In this document: positions 34,199 to 43,824 of the stretch, in pieces | How positions within the stretch are numbered: position 1 is the first letter of the stretch | Layout: each line of letters starts with the position of its first letter | NCBI GenBank assembly: GCA_016188575.1 | Contig: JACPHN010000097.1 | Span: 1-64,000, forward strand | DNA from: Candidatus Schekmanbacteria bacterium | GTDB lineage: Bacteria; CSSED10-310; JACPHN01 | Length of the DNA stretch: 64,000 nt | Direction of reading: 5' to 3' | The notes under the pieces: generated by a model | The model's input: the letters and a program-made list of their open reading frames with translations, nothing else | Told to the model about the DNA's origin: nothing | Database searches by the model: none | Made by a program: the position numbers and the translations under genes

Positions 34199-36412
34199 AT
34201 GACTGCGACTGCGCATCTGGAGAAATTCTCGTACGATGAAGACGTCGTCAGAAAGTTTGCACTGGCGACGGTCGTATGGGGCGTCGTCGGGATGCTCGTC
34301 GGCGTCGTTCTGGCGGTGGAGCTCTTCTTTCCCGCGGCAAGCCTCGGCCTGCCGTTTCTGACCTTCGGACGGCTGCGCCCACTTCATACCAATGCGGTGA
34401 TCTTCGCTTTCGCCGGCAACGCTATCTTTGCCGCCATCTACTACTCGAGCCAGCGTCTCCTCAAGGCGCGCATGTTCAGCGACCTGCTCAGTCGGGTTCA
34501 TTTCTGGGGCTGGCAACTGATCATCGTCTCCGCCGCCCTGACCTTGCCCCTGGGCATCACCCAGTCCAAGGAATACGCCGAGCTCGAGTGGCCTATCGAC
34601 ATCGCCATCGCCGTCATCTGGGTCGTCTTTGCGGTCAACCTCTTTGGGACGATCGCCAGGCGGCGTGAGCGCCACCTCTACGTGGCGATCTGGTTCTACA
34701 TCGCCACTGTGGTCACCGTCGCCATCCTGCACATCTTCAACAACCTCGTGGTGCCGGTCGAATTCCTCAAGAGCTACACGATCTACGCCGGCGTGCAGGA
34801 TGCGTTCATGCAATGGTGGTACGGCCACAACGCGGTGGCGTTCTTCCTGACCACGCCATTCCTGGGTCTGATGTATTACTTCTTGCCGAAGGCCGCGGAA
34901 CGTCCGGTCTTCTCGTACAAGCTCTCCATACTCCACTTCTGGACGCTCGTCTTTCTCTACATCTGGGCCGGACCGCACCATCTCCACTATACCGCCTTGC
35001 CTTCGTGGGCCTCCACGCTCGGCATGATCTTCTCGGTGATGCTGTGGATGCCCTCCTGGGGTGGCATGATCAACGGTCTGCTGACCCTGCGCGGCGCCTG
35101 GAACAAGGTCGCCGAGGAGCCGATCCTGAAGTTCTTCGTCGTGGGCGTCACGTTCTACGGGATGAGCACCTTCGAAGGCCCGATGATGTCGATCAAGACG
35201 GTCAACGCGCTCTCTCACTATACCGACTGGACCATCGCCCACGCTCACGCCGGGGCGCTCGGGTGGAACGGATTCCTGACCTTCGGGATGCTCTACTGGC
35301 TGCTGCCGCGGCTATTCCAGACGCCATTGTGGAGCAAGAAGCTGTCAGGCGCTCATTTCTGGGTCGGAACGATCGGTATTCTACTCTACGTGGTCTCCAT
35401 CTACACCGCCGGAATCACGCAGGGGCTGATGTGGCGCGCGTTCGATGAGACGGGCAGACTCGCTTACCCCGACTTCGTGGAGACTGTCTTGCGCCTCGTT
35501 CCCATGTATTGGGTGCGCGCGCTCGGCGGTCTGCTCTTCTTGACCGGCATCTTGATGCTCGGATTGAACATGCTGATGACCTGGAAGGCCCGGCCCGCGG
35601 CGTATACCGAGACGGTTTACGAGGCGCCTGCGCTCGCCGCCGAGCACGGCGACAGCGAGGCCGCCGCGGAGCCAGGCGCTTCCGCGTGGAAGCGGTTTGT
35701 CGGGATTCGCTGGCACCGATCCTGGGAAGGCCTTCCGGTGACCTTCACCGTGCTCGTCGCCGTGGCCGTCATCGTGGCTTCCCTGTTTGAAATCGTGCCG
35801 CTGTTCCTGATCCGCTCAAACGTCCCCACGATCGCCGCGGTCAAGCCGTACACGCCGCTCGAAGTCGCCGGACGGGACATCTACGTTTCCGAGGGATGCT
35901 ACAACTGCCACTCGCAGATGGTCCGCCCGCTGCGTGCCGAAACCGAGCGGTACGGCGAGTACAGCAAGCCAGGCGAATTCGTCTACGACCATCCCTTCCA
36001 GTGGGGTTCCCGCCGGATCGGGCCGGACCTGCACCGGGTCGGTGGCAAGTATCCGCACCTTTGGCACGTCCGGCACATGCAAGATCCGCGCTCCACGACG
36101 CCGCAATCGATCATGCCGCCCTATCCGTGGCTGCTCGAGGACGAGCTCGATTTCGCCGGCATTCAGCCCCGCGTCGACGTCCTCGCCATGCTTGGCGTTC
36201 CCTACGGCGACGCCGTCGGACACGCCGAAGAGATGGCGAGAAAGCAGGCGCAGACCATCGCCGACGACGTCGCCTCCCAGGGGGGGCCGACCGGACTGGG
36301 GCAGCGGAAAATTGTCGCGCTGATCGCATACCTCCAGCGGCTCGGAATTGACATCAAAGGGCAACAGACCGCGGACGCTTCGGCGGCTCCGGTCGTCGTC
36401 ACGAGAAACTAG
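34199..36412 (+). CDS. ccoNO: cbb3-type cytochrome c oxidase, fused CcoN-CcoO
   Basis: 737 residues. Residues 1-~465 are CcoN (catalytic subunit), with about 12 membrane spans and the conserved His-bearing segments [40 protein letters not shown] and [12 protein letters not shown]-like ([10 protein letters not shown]). After a ~35-residue Ala/Glu linker, residues ~505-737 are CcoO: one membrane anchor, then the haem c motif Cys567-xx-Cys570-His571 ([13 protein letters not shown]) and [14 protein letters not shown]-type ligand segments ([14 protein letters not shown]). CcoN and CcoO are usually separate; fused forms are known in some lineages. It reduces O2 to water with high affinity in the inner membrane. 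It is the first gene of the operon. Confidence 0.95.
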
Positions 36413-36424
36413 GGGAGCGCGGCG

Positions 36425-36679
36425 GTGTCGCTAGGGGACGTGATGGCGCAGGCGCGGCTCGAGCTCTTTGCAGAGATCGGGCTCATCATCTTCCTCGCGG
36501 TCTTTGTCACGATCGTGATTCATGTCTTTGTCGGCCGCGGACAGCATCAGGACGAGCTGCTCCGCATGCTGCCGCTCGCCGACGACACTGCCGAGAGCCG
36601 GACCGCGGACGCCACCATGTCCCCGCTGCCCACCGCCGCCGACAAGGAGCAGATCGATGAGCACGACAGAGCGCGATAG
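36425..36679 (+). CDS. ccoQ: cbb3 oxidase small subunit CcoQ/FixQ-like
   Basis: 84 residues from GTG 36425, 12 bp after ccoNO. One membrane span (~15-36, AEIGLIIFLAVFVTIVIHVF) is followed by a short polar tail, matching CcoQ in size and topology. CcoQ helps stabilise the oxidase. Its 3' end overlaps ccoP by 23 bp. The assignment rests mainly on position and topology. Confidence 0.75.
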   Translation: MSLGDVMAQARLELFAEIGLIIFLAVFVTIVIHVFVGRGQHQDELLRMLPLADDTAESRTADATMSPLPTAADKEQIDEHDRAR

Positions 36680-37238
36680 AGTTTTCGATCACGACTACGA
36701 CGGTATTCGGGAGTACGACAACCCATTACCGGCGTGGTGGCTGTGGATTTTCTACGCCACGATTGCCTTTTCGGGCGTCTACTTCCTATACTATCAGGTG
36801 ACCGGCATGGGCCCCTCGATTCATCAGGAGTACCAGACGGACATGGCGGCAGCGGCCGAGCAGAAGGCGGCCGCACCCGTCCCGGCGGGTCCCACGGCGG
36901 CCACCCTGGCGCAGCTCGCGGCCGACGCCGCACAGGTCTCCGCGGGGCAGGCCGTGTTTGTTGCGCGCTGCGCTCCCTGCCACACACCAACGGGCGCGGG
37001 GCTCATTGGGCCCAACCTCACCGATGACTACTGGATTCACGGAGATGGCAGTATCTCCGCGATCTACGCGGTCGTCCGTGATGGTGTGCCCGAAAAAGGC
37101 ATGATTCCGTGGAAAACTACGATTTCCGAAACCGAAATGATGCAAGTAACGGCGTTCGTCCACACCCTCCTCGGGACCAATCCGCCGGGCGCGAAGGAGC
37201 CGCAAGGCAACAAGATCGAGCGCCCAGCACAAAACTGA
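36657..37238 (+). CDS. ccoP: cbb3 oxidase subunit CcoP, single-haem form
   Basis: 193 residues from ATG 36657 (AAGGAG upstream). The N-terminus DHDYDGIREYDNPLPAWW is the CcoP signature and is followed by one membrane span (~26-45). Only one haem c motif is present: Cys105-xx-Cys108-His109 (ARCAPCHTPTG), with a likely Met ligand in EKGMIPWK. Usual CcoP is ~300 residues with two haems, so this is a short mono-haem version. It feeds electrons from cytochrome c into CcoO/CcoN. The stop is followed by 42 bp and then a dispersed repeat. Confidence 0.92.
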   Translation: MSTTERDRVFDHDYDGIREYDNPLPAWWLWIFYATIAFSGVYFLYYQVTGMGPSIHQEYQTDMAAAAEQKAAAPVPAGPTAATLAQLAADAAQVSAGQAVFVARCAPCHTPTGAGLIGPNLTDDYWIHGDGSISAIYAVVRDGVPEKGMIPWKTTISETEMMQVTAFVHTLLGTNPPGAKEPQGNKIERPAQN

Positions 37239-37401: not shown

Positions 37402-38824
37402 GGGTGCTCAAAGCAGCGACGAGGGCCGCGCGCTATCGACGCTCAACCGCGACGGGTCGCGGCGCTGGCTCAATCCCCGCCCGAGCAGCGGCATCTTTTC
37501 ACGGTACCGGCGCGCCGTCGCGTGGGCGCTGATTGCCATCTTCACCGCGCTACCCCATCTGACGATCCGCGGACGCCCCATCCTGCTGCTCGACCTGCCG
37601 CATCGACAGTTCACGATCCTCGGGGTCACGTTCTTGCCGACGGACACGGTTCTGTTGATGCTCCTCGGCCTGTCGCTGCTGATCGGGATCTTCGCCGTCA
37701 CGGCGCTGTTCGGGCGTATCTGGTGCGGCTGGGCCTGCCCCCAGACCGTATACATGGAGCTCCTCTTTCGCCCGCTCGAACGACTGATCGCGGGGACGCC
37801 CGCGCAACAACGCTCGCAAACCGCAGCCGAGCGCCGGTTGCGCAGCCTGGTCAAGTACGGTGTCTACCTGGCTTGCTGCCTCTTCCTGGCGCACACTTTC
37901 CTGGCCTACTTTGTCCCGCCCGCCGAGCTGCTACAGTGGGTAACCTCGTCCCCGCGCGACCACCCCGCCGGATTCGCCGTCGTCATGATCACCACCGCGC
38001 TGATGATGATCGACTTTGCGCTCTTTCGCGAGCAAATGTGCCTGGTTGCCTGCCCGTACGGCCGCTTTCAATCCGTGTTGCTGGACCGCCAATCGCTGAT
38101 CGTCGGCTACGATTTCGCACGCGGCGAGCCGCGCTCAAAGCCCGGGCGCCGTTCTCCGGGTCAGCAGGAGCCGGCGGGAGGTGATTGCGTCGACTGTCGC
38201 GCCTGCGTGCTCACCTGTCCCACCGGGATCGATATTCGCGATGGCCTGCAGATGGAGTGCATCCACTGCACGCAATGCATCGACGCCTGCGATGCGATCA
38301 TGTTGAAGATGGGCCGACCCCGCGGTCTGATCCGCTACTCGTCCAAGGCCGAGCTCGACGGGAGCCCGCGGCGGTTCGTGCGGCCGCGGCTCGTCGCGTA
38401 CTGCGTGCTGCTTCTCCTGCTGTCGGGGGTGTTTGCCGCCGCGCTCGCGGAAAGAGGCCGGGCGGACGTGACGGTTCTTCGCGGTATCGGCGGCCCGTTC
38501 ACCGCGACCGGCGACGGCCAGGTTGCGAACCAGATTCGCGTCAAGATTACCAACCGGACCGCTGCCGACCGCACCTACCGAATCGCGCTGCCAGACGCCG
38601 ATGGGAGAGACACCGTCATCATTCCCGAGAACCCCTTGACCATCCAGAGCTTCAAGACGCGGGAGGCCACGGTCTTCATTCTCTCGCCGCATGACGCGTT
38701 CCCGGGCGGCCGGCGCGAAGCACGGTTTCGCGTCGACGACGAGGACGGCGTGGTGGCGGAGCCGGCGTATCGCCTCCTGGGTCCAGCCGGCGCGCCCGGG
38801 CAAGCGGGCCGAGCCGCACCATGA
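37361..38824 (+). CDS. ccoG: cbb3 oxidase assembly ferredoxin CcoG (RdxA/FixG-like)
   Basis: 487 residues if started at GTG 37361; GTG 37298 is also possible, and no ATG is available. The recognisable protein begins at about 37436 (STLNRDGSRRWLNPRPSSG). Membrane spans follow, with the [4Fe-4S]-rich motif FGRIWCGWACPQTVYMELLFR (in parts), then CVDCRACVLTCP and CIHCTQCIDACDAIM, giving two clusters. A periplasmic Ig-like C-terminal domain ends the protein. CcoG reduces copper for the oxidase Cu(B) site. The frame upstream of residue ~25 is translated repeat element sequence, and neither candidate start has a good ribosome-binding site. Its stop overlaps the ccoH start (ATGA). Confidence 0.88.
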   Translation: MGGGTGADGRRIQAGAQSSDEGRALSTLNRDGSRRWLNPRPSSGIFSRYRRAVAWALIAIFTALPHLTIRGRPILLLDLPHRQFTILGVTFLPTDTVLLMLLGLSLLIGIFAVTALFGRIWCGWACPQTVYMELLFRPLERLIAGTPAQQRSQTAAERRLRSLVKYGVYLACCLFLAHTFLAYFVPPAELLQWVTSSPRDHPAGFAVVMITTALMMIDFALFREQMCLVACPYGRFQSVLLDRQSLIVGYDFARGEPRSKPGRRSPGQQEPAGGDCVDCRACVLTCPTGIDIRDGLQMECIHCTQCIDACDAIMLKMGRPRGLIRYSSKAELDGSPRRFVRPRLVAYCVLLLLLSGVFAAALAERGRADVTVLRGIGGPFTATGDGQVANQIRVKITNRTAADRTYRIALPDADGRDTVIIPENPLTIQSFKTREATVFILSPHDAFPGGRREARFRVDDEDGVVAEPAYRLLGPAGAPGQAGRAAP

Positions 38825-39321
38825 AGGCGGCGTGGGTCTGGCCGGCGATCATCGTCACCCTTCTGGCCGCGCACTGCTCGGTGACGGGGTTCCTCCTGGT
38901 CGCGGCAACGACGGATCCGTCATTTGCGGTCGAGGACCGGTATTACGAGAAGGCGCTGTCGTGGGACGCCGAGCTCGCCCAGCGAAAGCGAAATGACGAG
39001 CTGGGTTGGCGGCTGCTCGTGCAGCCGCCGGGTGGTCTTGCAGGTCTCGAGACGCAGGAGGTTCCGCTCGTGGTCCGGCTGACCGACCGCTCGGGCGCGC
39101 CCATTCAACAGGCCGAGGTCACCGTTGCCGCCTTCCACAACGCCCGGGCCGCGCAGGTCACGACCCGGGCGCTGCGAGAACGGGCGCCGGGGCAATACGA
39201 GGCGCTGTTTCCGTTCGTCCGCGCCGGCATCTGGGAGCTACGCTGCGCCGCGACGAGCCGCGGGCAGGTCTTTACCCGGGTGGTGCGGGCCACCTTGCCA
39301 GGCACGGGGGACAGCGTGTGA
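38821..39321 (+). CDS. ccoH: CcoH/FixH-family assembly protein
   Basis: 166 residues. The ATG overlaps the ccoG stop (ATGA). An N-terminal membrane span (~7-28) is followed by the FixH signature DPSFAVEDRYYEKALSWD and an Ig-like periplasmic domain (VPLVVRLTDRSGAPIQQAEV, WELRCAA). FixH is required for assembly of cbb3 oxidase and may interact with the copper ATPase. It is coupled to the next gene by GTGA. Confidence 0.88.
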   Translation: MKAAWVWPAIIVTLLAAHCSVTGFLLVAATTDPSFAVEDRYYEKALSWDAELAQRKRNDELGWRLLVQPPGGLAGLETQEVPLVVRLTDRSGAPIQQAEVTVAAFHNARAAQVTTRALRERAPGQYEALFPFVRAGIWELRCAATSRGQVFTRVVRATLPGTGDSV

Positions 39322-40022
39322 ACGAGTGGTCGATGACCGCGGTTTGCCTCGCGGCTTTCCTGGGAAGTGCGCACTGCGTGGGGATGTGTGGCCCGTTTGC
39401 GGGACTTGCGGTCGGGAGCGCGCGTGCGGGCCGCGGTGGCAGTGGCGGCGGCGGCGCGGCACGGATCGCGGCGTATCAGGCGGGGAGGCTAGCGGCCTAC
39501 GTGTCCCTTGGGGTTACCGCGGGCTGGCTTGGTTCCAGTTTCCTGGGATTCCTCGGCGACTTCGCTCGCTGGGCGGCCGTCGCGCTGGGGACGGTGATGA
39601 TCGCCGTGGGAGCAGGCATGCTGGTGGGCGTCGGGCGCGGCTCTCCCCCGTGGTGGCGTGGCCGGCTGCTCGCCGGGGGGTTCGGCGCGGCGGTTGCCGG
39701 CGTCGCCCGCCGGGTGCGCGCGTGGCCGTCACTGCTTCGCGCGGCCGCGATTGGATCGTCGAGCGGGCTGCTACCGTGCGGCTGGCTCTATGGCTTCGTC
39801 GCAGTCGCCGCGGCGACTGCCGGTCCGCTTCGCGGCGGCGAGACGCTCTTTGCGTTCTGGCTCGGTTCCGCGCCCGCGCTCGTCGGCCTCGGCGCTGGCC
39901 TGACTCGCGTTCTCGCGCGCTTTTCCCGATACCGCCGAGTCGCATCCGGTGCGCTGCTGATCACCGCCGGTCTGGTCGCCATCGCCATGCGCGCCCACCT
40001 CGGCTCCCCCACCTGCCACTGA
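39318..40022 (+). CDS. SafE/TauE-like (COG2836) membrane protein
   Basis: 234 residues from GTG 39318, overlapping the ccoH stop. Six or so membrane spans are present. The conserved N-terminal motif AAFLGSAHCVGMCGPF and the second-half motif GSSSGLLPCGWLYGFV mark the COG2836 family, regularly found between ccoH/ccoI and ccoS and implicated in copper delivery to the oxidase. The Cys residues in HCVGMCG and LLPCG are plausible copper ligands. Expected location is the inner membrane. Confidence 0.85.
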   Translation: MNEWSMTAVCLAAFLGSAHCVGMCGPFAGLAVGSARAGRGGSGGGGAARIAAYQAGRLAAYVSLGVTAGWLGSSFLGFLGDFARWAAVALGTVMIAVGAGMLVGVGRGSPPWWRGRLLAGGFGAAVAGVARRVRAWPSLLRAAAIGSSSGLLPCGWLYGFVAVAAATAGPLRGGETLFAFWLGSAPALVGLGAGLTRVLARFSRYRRVASGALLITAGLVAIAMRAHLGSPTCH

Positions 40023-40039
40023 TTGCGAAGCCCTGTGCC

Positions 40040-42541
40040 ATGCCGCACAGCACGGACGATTCCCAGGACTCCCGCTGTGCCCATTGCCGGCTCCCCGTGC
40101 CGCCGGCGCTGCTCCGTGCCGGCGCCGGCGAGCAGTTTTGCTGTCAGGGCTGCCGCACCGTTCATGCGGTACTGCACGAGCACGGCCTCGAGCGCTACTA
40201 CGAGCTGGCGGCGGAGGCAGACCCGACGCCGCGGCCACCGGACGTCAGCGGCCGCTCCTTCGCGGAGCTCGACTCCGAGACCTTCCGGGAGCGCTACTGC
40301 ACCGCTGTCCCTGGTGGCCTCCGCGCGGTCGAGCTGTACCTGGAGGGCGTCCACTGCATTGCCTGCCTCTGGCTCCTCGAAAACCTCGGTGCCGTCGTTG
40401 CTGGAGTGGGTTCGCTCCGCCTCGATTTCGGCCGCGCCGTGGCGCGCGTCGTCTGGAACCCCGACGAGGTTGCTCTCAGCGCGATCGCGCGCATGCTGGA
40501 TCGCATGGGGTATTTGCCCCACCCCTACCGCGCCCGCGACCTCCATGCACTGAGGCGGCGCGAAAACCGCGCTTTGCTGGCGAGAATCGGCGTTGCCGGC
40601 GCCGCCGCCGGAAACGTCATGTTGCTGTCCGTCGCGCTCTACGCGGGCCTGTTTACCGGCATCGACCCGGAGCTGCGGACGCTCTTCCGCTGGACCTCCC
40701 TCGCGGTCAGCCTGCCGGCGTCGCTGTGGGCGGGAAGCGTGTTTTTCCGGAATGCTCTCGCGGCTCTGCGCGTGCGCCGGGTCCACATGGACATTCCTAT
40801 TGCGATCGGCATTGCCGCGGGGCTCGCCGGCGGCGCCGTGAATACCGTATCGGGCACCGGCGAGATCTATTTCGATTCGATCATGACGCTCGTATTCCTG
40901 CTGCTCGTAGGCCGATGGCTGCAGCTCAGGGCGCAGCGGCGCGCCGCGGAGATCACCGAGCGGCGGCTATCGCTGGTGCCTTCGAGCGCGCGCCTGGTGG
41001 TCGGAGATGAGATCCAGGAGGTGCTGCTGGAGGCTCTGGTTCCCGGCGCCCTGGTGGAAGTTCGCGCCGGCGAGACGGTGCCGGCGGATGGCACCGTGAG
41101 CTCGGGCGAAACCGAGCTCGACGCCTCGATGCTGACGGGCGAAAGCGCGCCCCGGGTCGCGCGTGCGGCTGACACCTTGCTGGCGGGAATGATCAATCTG
41201 AGCGGGGCAATTCGCATGCGCGTGGACGCGGCCGGAGAGGAAACGCGCGTGGGTCGCTTGCTCGCGTCGGTGGCGGAGCACCAGCGGCGCCGGGCTCCCA
41301 TCGTGTCCCTGGCGGATCGCGTATCGGGATACTTTGTTGCCGTCGTCCTGGTCGCCGCGGTCCTGACCTTCCTGGCGTGGTGGGAGGCGGGCGGTCCCGC
41401 AGTGGCGCTCGACCGCGCGCTCGCGTTGCTGATCGTAACCTGCCCATGCGCACTTGGCATGGCGACGCCGCTGGCCGTGTCGGCGGCGCTTGGCAAGGCC
41501 GCCGCCGCCGGCATTCTGATCCGCGGCGGCGACGCGCTGGAGTCGCTCTCGCGATGCGGCAGGATGTGGCTCGACAAGACCGGCACCTTGACCGAGGGAA
41601 AGCTCCGCCTCGAATCGTGGGTGGGAGCGGACGCGGTGCTTCGCCGCCTCAGGCGCGCGGAGGCCGAATCCGCACACCCAATTGCCGCGGCACTGCGCCG
41701 CGGCGCCGGCGCCGGCGGTCCCGCGGACATTGCACGCGCGGCAGGCATGCCGGAGCCCGAGCTGAGCCGCTGCGAACAGGTGCTCGGTGCCGGTCTGCGC
41801 GCTACGGTTGACGGCCGCGAGCTGGTTGCGGGGAGCCCGGCTTTCGTCGCCGGTGAGATCCCCGGCGCCTTCCCGGCCTGGGTCGACGCCTGCGTGCGCG
41901 CCGCGGCGGCCGCCGGCCAGACGCCGGTGGTGGTTGCGGAGAGCGGGATCCCTGAAGGCGTTGCCGTGCTGGCCGACGCGCTTCATGCGGACGCGGAGGA
42001 AATGGTTGCCAGGCTCGGCGAGCGCGGGTGGCAGGTGGGGATTCTCTCGGGCGACCACCCGGAGGCCGTGAAATCAGTTGCCGCGACGCTCGGCATCGCG
42101 CGCGACGAGGCGTTCGGCGGGCTGACCCCGGAGCAAAAGCGGGACGTCGTCGCACGCGGGGGCGACGGCGGAGTCGTCGTCATGGTGGGCGACGGGATCA
42201 ACGACGCCGCTGCCCTCGGTGCCGCTCAGGTCGGCATTTCGGTGCACGGCGGCGCCGAGGCCAGCCTGCAGGCGGCCGACGTCTTCTTGCAGCGCCCCGG
42301 GCTTCGACCCATAATCGAGCTTCTGGACGGTGCGCGGCGATCACTCGGCGCCGTCCGCCGTAATCTGGCCATCTCGCTTCTCTACAACCTGGTCGCGGGA
42401 GCTCTCGCGATGTCCGGCCTCATTCACCCGCTGATCGCGGCCGTGCTGATGCCGCTCAGCTCGCTGACGGTCGTCAGCCTCTCGTTTCGCGCGCGCACCT
42501 TCGAGGCGGCGGCGGAGCGCTCAGGAAGGCGTGCTCAATGA
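40040..42541 (+). CDS. ccoI: Copper-transporting P1B ATPase CcoI
   Basis: 833 residues from ATG 40040. The N-terminal metal-binding region carries CAHC (Cys13/16) and FCCQGC (34-38). An HMA-like domain has Cys106-xx-Cys109 (GVHCIACLWLLE). Membrane spans follow, with the ion-path motif CPC (Cys468/Cys470, TCPCALGMATPLA). The phosphorylation site is Asp512 in DKTGTLTEG, the nucleotide-binding motif is HP in AESAHPIAAA, and the hinge motif is GDGINDAAAL. It exports copper across the inner membrane for cbb3 Cu(B) insertion. It overlaps the next gene by ATGA. Confidence 0.95.
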   Translation: MPHSTDDSQDSRCAHCRLPVPPALLRAGAGEQFCCQGCRTVHAVLHEHGLERYYELAAEADPTPRPPDVSGRSFAELDSETFRERYCTAVPGGLRAVELYLEGVHCIACLWLLENLGAVVAGVGSLRLDFGRAVARVVWNPDEVALSAIARMLDRMGYLPHPYRARDLHALRRRENRALLARIGVAGAAAGNVMLLSVALYAGLFTGIDPELRTLFRWTSLAVSLPASLWAGSVFFRNALAALRVRRVHMDIPIAIGIAAGLAGGAVNTVSGTGEIYFDSIMTLVFLLLVGRWLQLRAQRRAAEITERRLSLVPSSARLVVGDEIQEVLLEALVPGALVEVRAGETVPADGTVSSGETELDASMLTGESAPRVARAADTLLAGMINLSGAIRMRVDAAGEETRVGRLLASVAEHQRRRAPIVSLADRVSGYFVAVVLVAAVLTFLAWWEAGGPAVALDRALALLIVTCPCALGMATPLAVSAALGKAAAAGILIRGGDALESLSRCGRMWLDKTGTLTEGKLRLESWVGADAVLRRLRRAEAESAHPIAAALRRGAGAGGPADIARAAGMPEPELSRCEQVLGAGLRATVDGRELVAGSPAFVAGEIPGAFPAWVDACVRAAAAAGQTPVVVAESGIPEGVAVLADALHADAEEMVARLGERGWQVGILSGDHPEAVKSVAATLGIARDEAFGGLTPEQKRDVVARGGDGGVVVMVGDGINDAAALGAAQVGISVHGGAEASLQAADVFLQRPGLRPIIELLDGARRSLGAVRRNLAISLLYNLVAGALAMSGLIHPLIAAVLMPLSSLTVVSLSFRARTFEAAAERSGRRAQ

Positions 42542-43824
42542 GCACCGTCTATATCATTTTGCCGTTGGCGCTGATGCTCGGGGGACTCGCTCTTGCGGCG
42601 TTCATTGCAGCCCTGCGCAGCGGCCAGTTCGACGACCTCCAGACGCCGGCCATGCGCATCCTCCTGGACGAGGCAACCCACCAGCGGCCCGCGCGGTTGA
42701 GCACCGTTGCGAGTCGCGAGACCACCGAGCCCCCAGGCCAGGGCGGCAGCCCCACCCCCCGCGATTTCCTCGCGCCACCGCATGAGCACGGGCCGGAGCG
42801 ACCTGTCGACCTCGTGACGGGCGCGACCGGGCTGGTCGGCGGCAACCTGGTGCGCGAGCTCGTGGGGCGAGGCGAGCGCGTGCGCGTCCTGGCGCGCTTG
42901 ACCTCGCGGCAGGGACATCTTGCGGAGCTGGCCGGCATCGAATGGGTGCAGGGCGACATTACGGACGCCGCCTCGCTTTCCGCGGCATGCGCCGGTATCC
43001 GGCGTGTCTATCATTGCGCGGCCCTGGTCTCGATGTGGCCGGGCGATGCCGGCGCCATGATGGCGGTGAACGCCGGCGGCACGGAGAACATGCTGGCCGC
43101 GGCGCGCGCGGGTGGCGTGGAGCGGTTTGTCCATTGCAGCTCCGTCGACGCGATCGGCCTGCCGGAACCGGGTGGCCCGCCGGCCACGGAATCCACGCCC
43201 TGGAACTGGGAGCACATGGGCGTCGCGACGGGGTACGCCCGGAGCAAACTGGCGGCCCAGGACCGCGTGCTCGCCGCGGTTGCCCAGGGGCTCGACGCCG
43301 TGATCGTCAATCCCGCCCTGATGTTCGGACCTTACGACCAGAAACCGTCCAGCGGCCGAATGATCCTGGAGGTGGCCCGCGGGTGGCTCGTGGCCTTTCC
43401 CGGCGGGGGCAACAACGTCGTGGACGTCCGGGACGTCGCCGCCGCCATGGTCGCTGCGGCCGAGCGCGGCCGGTGCGGCGAGCTGTATATTCTCGGCAAC
43501 GCCAACATGACCTACCGGGAGATTTTCTCGGTCATGGCGGACGTCACCGGCGTCGCACCGCCGTGGCTGCCCGTCCCGCGCCTGGTAGGAATCGCTGCGG
43601 GCATGGCCGCCGAGGCGTTCGGGTGGCTGACTGGTAAGCCGGTCGAGCTCAACCGCGAGAGCGCCCGCATGGGTTTCGTCGAGCACTACTACGATGCGAG
43701 CAAGGCCCGGCGCGAGCTGGGGCTGGCGGCATCGCCGGTGCGCGGGGCCGTGGAGAGCGCGGTGGCGTGGCTGCGGAGTCAGCGCATGTTGCCGCCCGCA
43801 AGCGCGCCATTCATCGGGCGCTGA
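42538..43824 (+). CDS. CcoS fused to an extended SDR (NAD(P)-dependent epimerase/dehydrogenase-like)
   Basis: 428 residues in one uninterrupted frame from ATG 42538, overlapping ccoI. Residues 1-~46 are CcoS: a membrane span (YIILPLALMLGGLALAAF) followed by the diagnostic AALRSGQFDDLQTPAMRILLD. A Pro/Ser linker (~50-88) leads to a Rossmann domain, with TGATGLVGG at 94-102 and Tyr233-xxx-Lys237 (GYARSK). The C-terminus resembles 3beta-HSD/dihydroflavonol-reductase-like SDRs (NPALMFGPYD, VVDVRDVA). CcoS is needed for haem/metal insertion into cbb3. The SDR substrate is unknown. No start codon can separate the SDR from the CcoS part, so it is a real fusion unless a frameshift hides two genes. 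Its stop overlaps the convergent GDPD gene. Confidence 0.88.
   Translation: MSTVYIILPLALMLGGLALAAFIAALRSGQFDDLQTPAMRILLDEATHQRPARLSTVASRETTEPPGQGGSPTPRDFLAPPHEHGPERPVDLVTGATGLVGGNLVRELVGRGERVRVLARLTSRQGHLAELAGIEWVQGDITDAASLSAACAGIRRVYHCAALVSMWPGDAGAMMAVNAGGTENMLAAARAGGVERFVHCSSVDAIGLPEPGGPPATESTPWNWEHMGVATGYARSKLAAQDRVLAAVAQGLDAVIVNPALMFGPYDQKPSSGRMILEVARGWLVAFPGGGNNVVDVRDVAAAMVAAAERGRCGELYILGNANMTYREIFSVMADVTGVAPPWLPVPRLVGIAAGMAAEAFGWLTGKPVELNRESARMGFVEHYYDASKARRELGLAASPVRGAVESAVAWLRSQRMLPPASAPFIGR

Follow-up and report, generated by a model that had tools for sequence, protein, structure and literature searches.

A credible, so far unique in-frame fusion of ccoS with an extended SDR gene at the end of a cbb3 oxidase operon in a Candidatus Schekmanbacteria bacterium

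A cbb3 oxidase operon of a Candidatus Schekmanbacteria bacterium ends in a reading frame in which CcoS runs on into an extended SDR enzyme, and the question raised by this locus is whether the join is genuine and, if so, whether the enzyme serves the oxidase or is merely carried along. The mode of action of CcoS is poorly understood. The ccoGHIS cluster has been described (PMC7558416), and in other organisms CcoS is needed for an active cbb3 oxidase; mutants without it assemble an inactive enzyme (PMC7558416, PMC5742617). The window, i.e., the whole stretch of 64,000 nucleotides that was analysed (contig JACPHN010000097.1), belongs to an assembly of one genome (GCA_016188575.1; 275 contigs, 93.8% completeness, 3.7% contamination), and all window features given below lie on the plus strand.

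In a preliminary description of this DNA the gene had been placed at the end of a cbb3 oxidase operon, and this position was borne out by the gene order: ccoNO (fused), probable ccoQ, ccoP, ccoG, ccoH, a DsbD_2 gene, ccoI, and finally the ccoS-SDR gene. Subunits I and II are joined in ccoNO (34199-36412; NF011053, 1246 bits vs. a cut-off of 1080; PF00115, PF02433), which is followed by a probable ccoQ (36425-36679), assigned by its position between ccoNO and ccoP and by its translation (84 aa, one hydrophobic span), and by ccoP (36657-37238; PF14715, PF13442), composed of FixP_N and a single cytochrome c domain. This ccoP has one CxxCH haem site vs. two in the classical subunit and scores 96 bits, under the TIGR00782 cut-off of 180 bits. 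The next genes are ccoG (37496-38824, start approximate in a frame open from 37109; TIGR02745, 436.6 bits, cut-off 316.7), ccoH (38821-39321; PF05751, 73.6 bits), the gene of a DsbD_2 (TauE/SafE-like) membrane protein (39336-40022, start approximate; PF13386, 105.9 bits), which was masked by the long spurious start of the frame 39125-42541, and ccoI, encoding the copper P-type ATPase (40040-42541, start placed by inference; PF12156, PF00122, PF00702, and translation). ANR/FNR-type sites were matched four times in the window vs. 2.6 expected, with none upstream of ccoN.

The frame of the last gene (42538-43824), reported earlier as single and continuous, is uninterrupted and encodes 428 residues, laid out as CcoS (1-47), a linker (about 48-88), and the extended SDR (about 89-417). 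Its ATG overlaps the ccoI TGA as ATGA, and a Shine-Dalgarno sequence read from the DNA, AGGAAGG (42523-42529), stands 8 bases 5' of the start codon. Modelling with AlphaFold, which had been proposed as a check of the two-domain architecture, gave the expected helix (residues 3-27), a disordered linker (disorder at 29-84), and the SDR, with a Rossmann domain that was mostly well predicted. In the MAFFT alignment from which the model was folded (A1), the SDR homologues are misaligned over their first ten residues, so that fine model detail at residues 88-98 is weakly grounded.

The N-terminal part (42538-42678) consists of a single membrane span, the modelled helix 3-27, and RSGQFDDLQTPAMRILLDE, with the GQFDD motif following the span (RSGQFDD at residues 27-33). 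It matched PF03597 (FixS) over residues 1 to 45/47 with 61.8 bits (cut-off 23.1) and TIGR00847 (CcoS) with 53.1 bits (cut-off 28.35), and the description of a full CcoS with membrane span and RSGQFDD therefore agrees with both Pfam and NCBIfam. At 428 residues, the protein lacks the small stand-alone size that is usual for, if not strictly defining of, CcoS. The search of its genome with PF03597 gave one match, the fusion alone; since no other CcoS was found, we infer that the fusion probably retains the CcoS job in this genome.

The extended SDR part (42802-43788) matched PF01370 (Epimerase) over residues 92-320 with 128.9 bits (cut-off 20.9). Both motifs that had been called intact are present, the nucleotide-binding TGATGLVGG (residues 94-102; 42817-42843) and the catalytic YxxxK in the form YARSK (residues 233-237, with Y233 and K237; 43234-43248), and together with the catalytic Ser pair of HCSSVDAIG (S201/S202; 43138-43143) they align with four relatives at 44-48% identity (alignment A2). 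A Rossmann fold with a C-terminal substrate domain is found in the model and in the structure 3wj7 (TM 0.87 by target length). The SDR homologues start directly at the strand equivalent to residue 90, and hence the domain is complete but for a start of its own. R120, immediately after the second strand, suggests together with general knowledge of SDR families that NADP(H) would be the preferred cofactor.

The best NCBIfam match of this part is HpnA (TIGR03466), with 290.7 bits vs. a cut-off of 367.65, while the sterol demethylase SdmB (NF052578) was rejected at 214.6 bits vs. an equivalog cut-off of 600. No squalene-hopene or triterpene cyclase was found in the 93.8%-complete genome, where the best TIGR01507 match reached 21.5 bits vs. 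431.1, and given the missed cut-offs and the missing cyclase, a hopanoid or sterol role of the SDR is unlikely. Four further HpnA-like SDRs occur in the same genome (G000:C111:9708-10691, C222:4214-5182, C220:25414-26412, and C72:17945-18940; 208-306 bits with the HpnA profile), and as they are present without a squalene-hopene cyclase, the family seems to be non-hopanoid here. The closest relatives of the SDR part (45-49%) lie outside cco clusters, and the matches listed from a plasmid collection were separate SDRs, the best at 40%.

Whether the two parts are truly joined depends on the linker (42679-42801), which is rich in Pro, Ser, Thr, and Glu and predicted to be disordered (pLDDT < 50 for residues 29-84). 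The ATG at 42782, correctly described as out of frame, forms an ATGA with a frame-2 TGA at 42783, and because this overlap sits at the would-be SDR start, an artefact of two indels was tested: an assembly or consensus error, e.g., two missing bases, might hide TGA 42783/ATG 42782 and with them separate ccoS and SDR genes. The ATGA mirrors the ccoI-ccoS join at a plausible place for an SDR start, and C and G runs lie near it. Such an error would take two indels within ~110 bases, which speaks against it; one indel alone, at the GGG run, would not suffice, since frame 2 is then stop-free as far as 43200. Codon scoring trained on 14 window genes, none with an internal stop, gave the linker -5.0 bits in frame 0, the frame of the fusion, vs. 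-21.6 and -26.8 for the two alternatives, and at 42700-42782 the scores were -0.1 in frame 0 vs. -12.5 and -17.1, the last being that of frame 2, the one required by ccoS. Even in frame 0, codon usage in the linker scores close to neutral and not positively, which counts against a fusion, whereas the uninterrupted state of the 14 other window genes counts against an error. From codon scores and stop positions, a frameshift between the CcoS and SDR parts is the less likely case, and we regard an assembly error as improbable. The heptamer TGAGCAC occurs three times within 250 bases (42538, 42697, and 42782), each time after A or T so that ATG or TTG is followed by Ser-Thr codons, and two of the three copies have the 10-mer TGAGCACCGT in common; the copies are possibly remnants of earlier gene starts.

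The second of these copies bears on the statement that no start codon would allow the SDR to be translated alone. As worded it does not hold, for a TTG at 42697-42699 is in frame and is the only internal position from which a separate SDR could plausibly be started, giving 375 residues with a ~36-residue N-terminal extension; the in-frame ATG at 42652 lies within CcoS, and a start at the in-frame GTG 42814 would remove the first SDR strand. A weaker form of the statement survives, since none of these internal starts has a convincing Shine-Dalgarno sequence. The TTG is followed by AGC ACC GTT, resembling the ccoS start, and the SDR might also be made alone from it, either beside the fusion or replacing it after cleavage. 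We consider two products from one frame unlikely: the TTG has no Shine-Dalgarno sequence at the usual distance, the ~36 extra residues are absent from homologues, which begin a few residues from the first strand, and there is no stop 5' of the TTG to terminate a separate CcoS. The reading we prefer, with a probability of roughly 0.78, is a true in-frame fusion of ccoS and an HpnA/GOX2253-like SDR gene, giving one 428-residue protein, presumably translated as one chain, that is anchored by CcoS and keeps the SDR tethered.

To see whether such a fusion recurs, PF03597 was searched in 1377 genomes. The window's phylum supplied 8 of these and two small phyla 7 and 3; 195 came from a phylum taken to be Myxococcota, 395 from the one that includes a Gemmatimonadota record, 392 from the one that includes a Phycisphaerae record, and 377 from one more phylum (that of G265). 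CcoS-bearing genomes, counting that of the window, numbered 420. A fused SDR would require an open frame of at least ~360 residues, and nearly all listed frames of this length, bar a few with very weak FixS matches, were inspected. Homologous fusions in related genomes, which the preliminary description had named as supporting evidence, did not turn up: no second CcoS-SDR fusion was seen among the ~420 CcoS-bearing genomes, with no SDR match in the long frames inspected, and in the window's phylum (8 genomes) the one other genome with a CcoS has it standing alone. Long ccoS frames, reaching 916 aa and beyond, were considered as recurrent fusions in Gemmatimonadota, Myxococcota, Planctomycetota, and one more large phylum and were rejected, as almost all reflect sequence that is spuriously open upstream of ccoS in GC-rich DNA, with no SDR match near any; ccoS genes with a recognisable motif in such frames end normally, with one exception (L091, see below). 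When patterns from the fusion protein were scanned against 84,980 named genomes, CcoS loci and SDR loci appeared and no fusion, a result that is not exhaustive because exact peptide patterns were used. In eight loci of named organisms, no HpnA-like SDR was found at distances of up to 10 kb from ccoS, and none in the 2-3 kb around it in the other loci; an unfused ancestor, with an SDR gene adjoining ccoS, was likewise not found in the loci inspected. Nine Chitinophaga loci (L029-L034, L040, L041, and L050) have ccoS ~10 kb from an opposite-strand HpnA-like SDR, which is probably chance shared gene order. The literature search returned no paper on a CcoS-SDR fusion, in line with the earlier remark that no described example was known. 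The fusion is thus credible and so far unique, and was found in no paper searched.

An HpnA/GOX2253-like extended SDR would have arrived behind ccoS, the stop of which would then have been lost. The tails of CcoS proteins are by nature long and variable and are probably disordered; the N-terminal part could thus keep its cofactor-insertion job, and as the distance from motif to end is 16-58 residues (median 30) in 63 other CcoS, a long tail with cargo would be a modest step. The CcoS helix would anchor the protein near CcoI and CcoN, with the SDR suspended from a ~40-residue linker, most likely on the cytoplasmic face because NADP(H) is there. The enzyme itself would be an NADP(H)-dependent oxidoreductase for a small carbonyl or sugar, and its substrate need not concern the oxidase.

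A further function could be added to this fusion without contradicting it, namely recruitment of the SDR to the place where the oxidase is assembled; there it would act on membrane lipid, quinone, or haem, as the preliminary description had suggested, or sense NADP(H). The physical tether, the intact active site, and the coupled expression would fit recruitment, as would the fact that the fusion is the sole CcoS found in its genome; still, we find it doubtful, given that the arrangement does not recur among the ~420 CcoS-bearing genomes, that no such SDR lies near ccoS elsewhere (10 kb in the eight named loci, 2-3 kb in the others), that the closest SDR relatives (45-49%) stand amid unrelated genes, and that the genome has no triterpene cyclase. 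Less probable still is the specific form in which a little-known phylum would have an SDR, tethered to the membrane and binding NADP(H), whose dedicated task is cbb3 maturation, as an enzyme or redox sensor at the site of copper and haem insertion. Were an action of the SDR on the oxidase borne out, an unsuspected factor would be added to the assembly of a high-affinity respiratory enzyme. Being a singleton without a shared gene neighbourhood, the fusion more probably belongs among the many domain fusions confined to a single lineage. If the fusion protein is functional, the C-terminus of CcoS is free, and CcoS should accept a tag or bait at that end, which would be useful experimentally.

Compared with known systems, the protein joins domains of two known families in a new arrangement and is a singleton in these data. 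Like CcoS/FixS (PF03597, TIGR00847), it has the membrane span and the RSGQFDDLQTPAMRIL motif, is encoded last in ccoGHIS, and passes both curated cut-offs; unlike the CcoS measured, which stop 16-58 residues past the motif, it carries ~400 more residues, including a complete enzyme. CcoS sequence within a longer frame is also seen in L091 (G501:C1, reverse strand, from the Gemmatimonadota phylum search), where a P-type ATPase frame continues into the second half of CcoS, with the end of the membrane span and RSGQFDDLDTP and without the CcoS start. L091 is possibly a natural ATPase-CcoS fusion, or else a deletion or assembly join, and differs from the present case in that CcoS is C-terminal and has lost its own start. 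The hopanoid-associated sugar epimerase HpnA is matched by the SDR part over nearly its full length, although below the family cut-off and in a genome without squalene-hopene cyclase. NDUFA9, an SDR-fold subunit of complex I, would offer a loose likeness to a tethered maturation SDR. The closest solved relative is GOX2253 of Gluconobacter oxydans (PDB 3wj7), an HpnA-like extended SDR with 39% identity over ~330 residues and the same fold, which in contrast to the SDR of the fusion has no membrane anchor.
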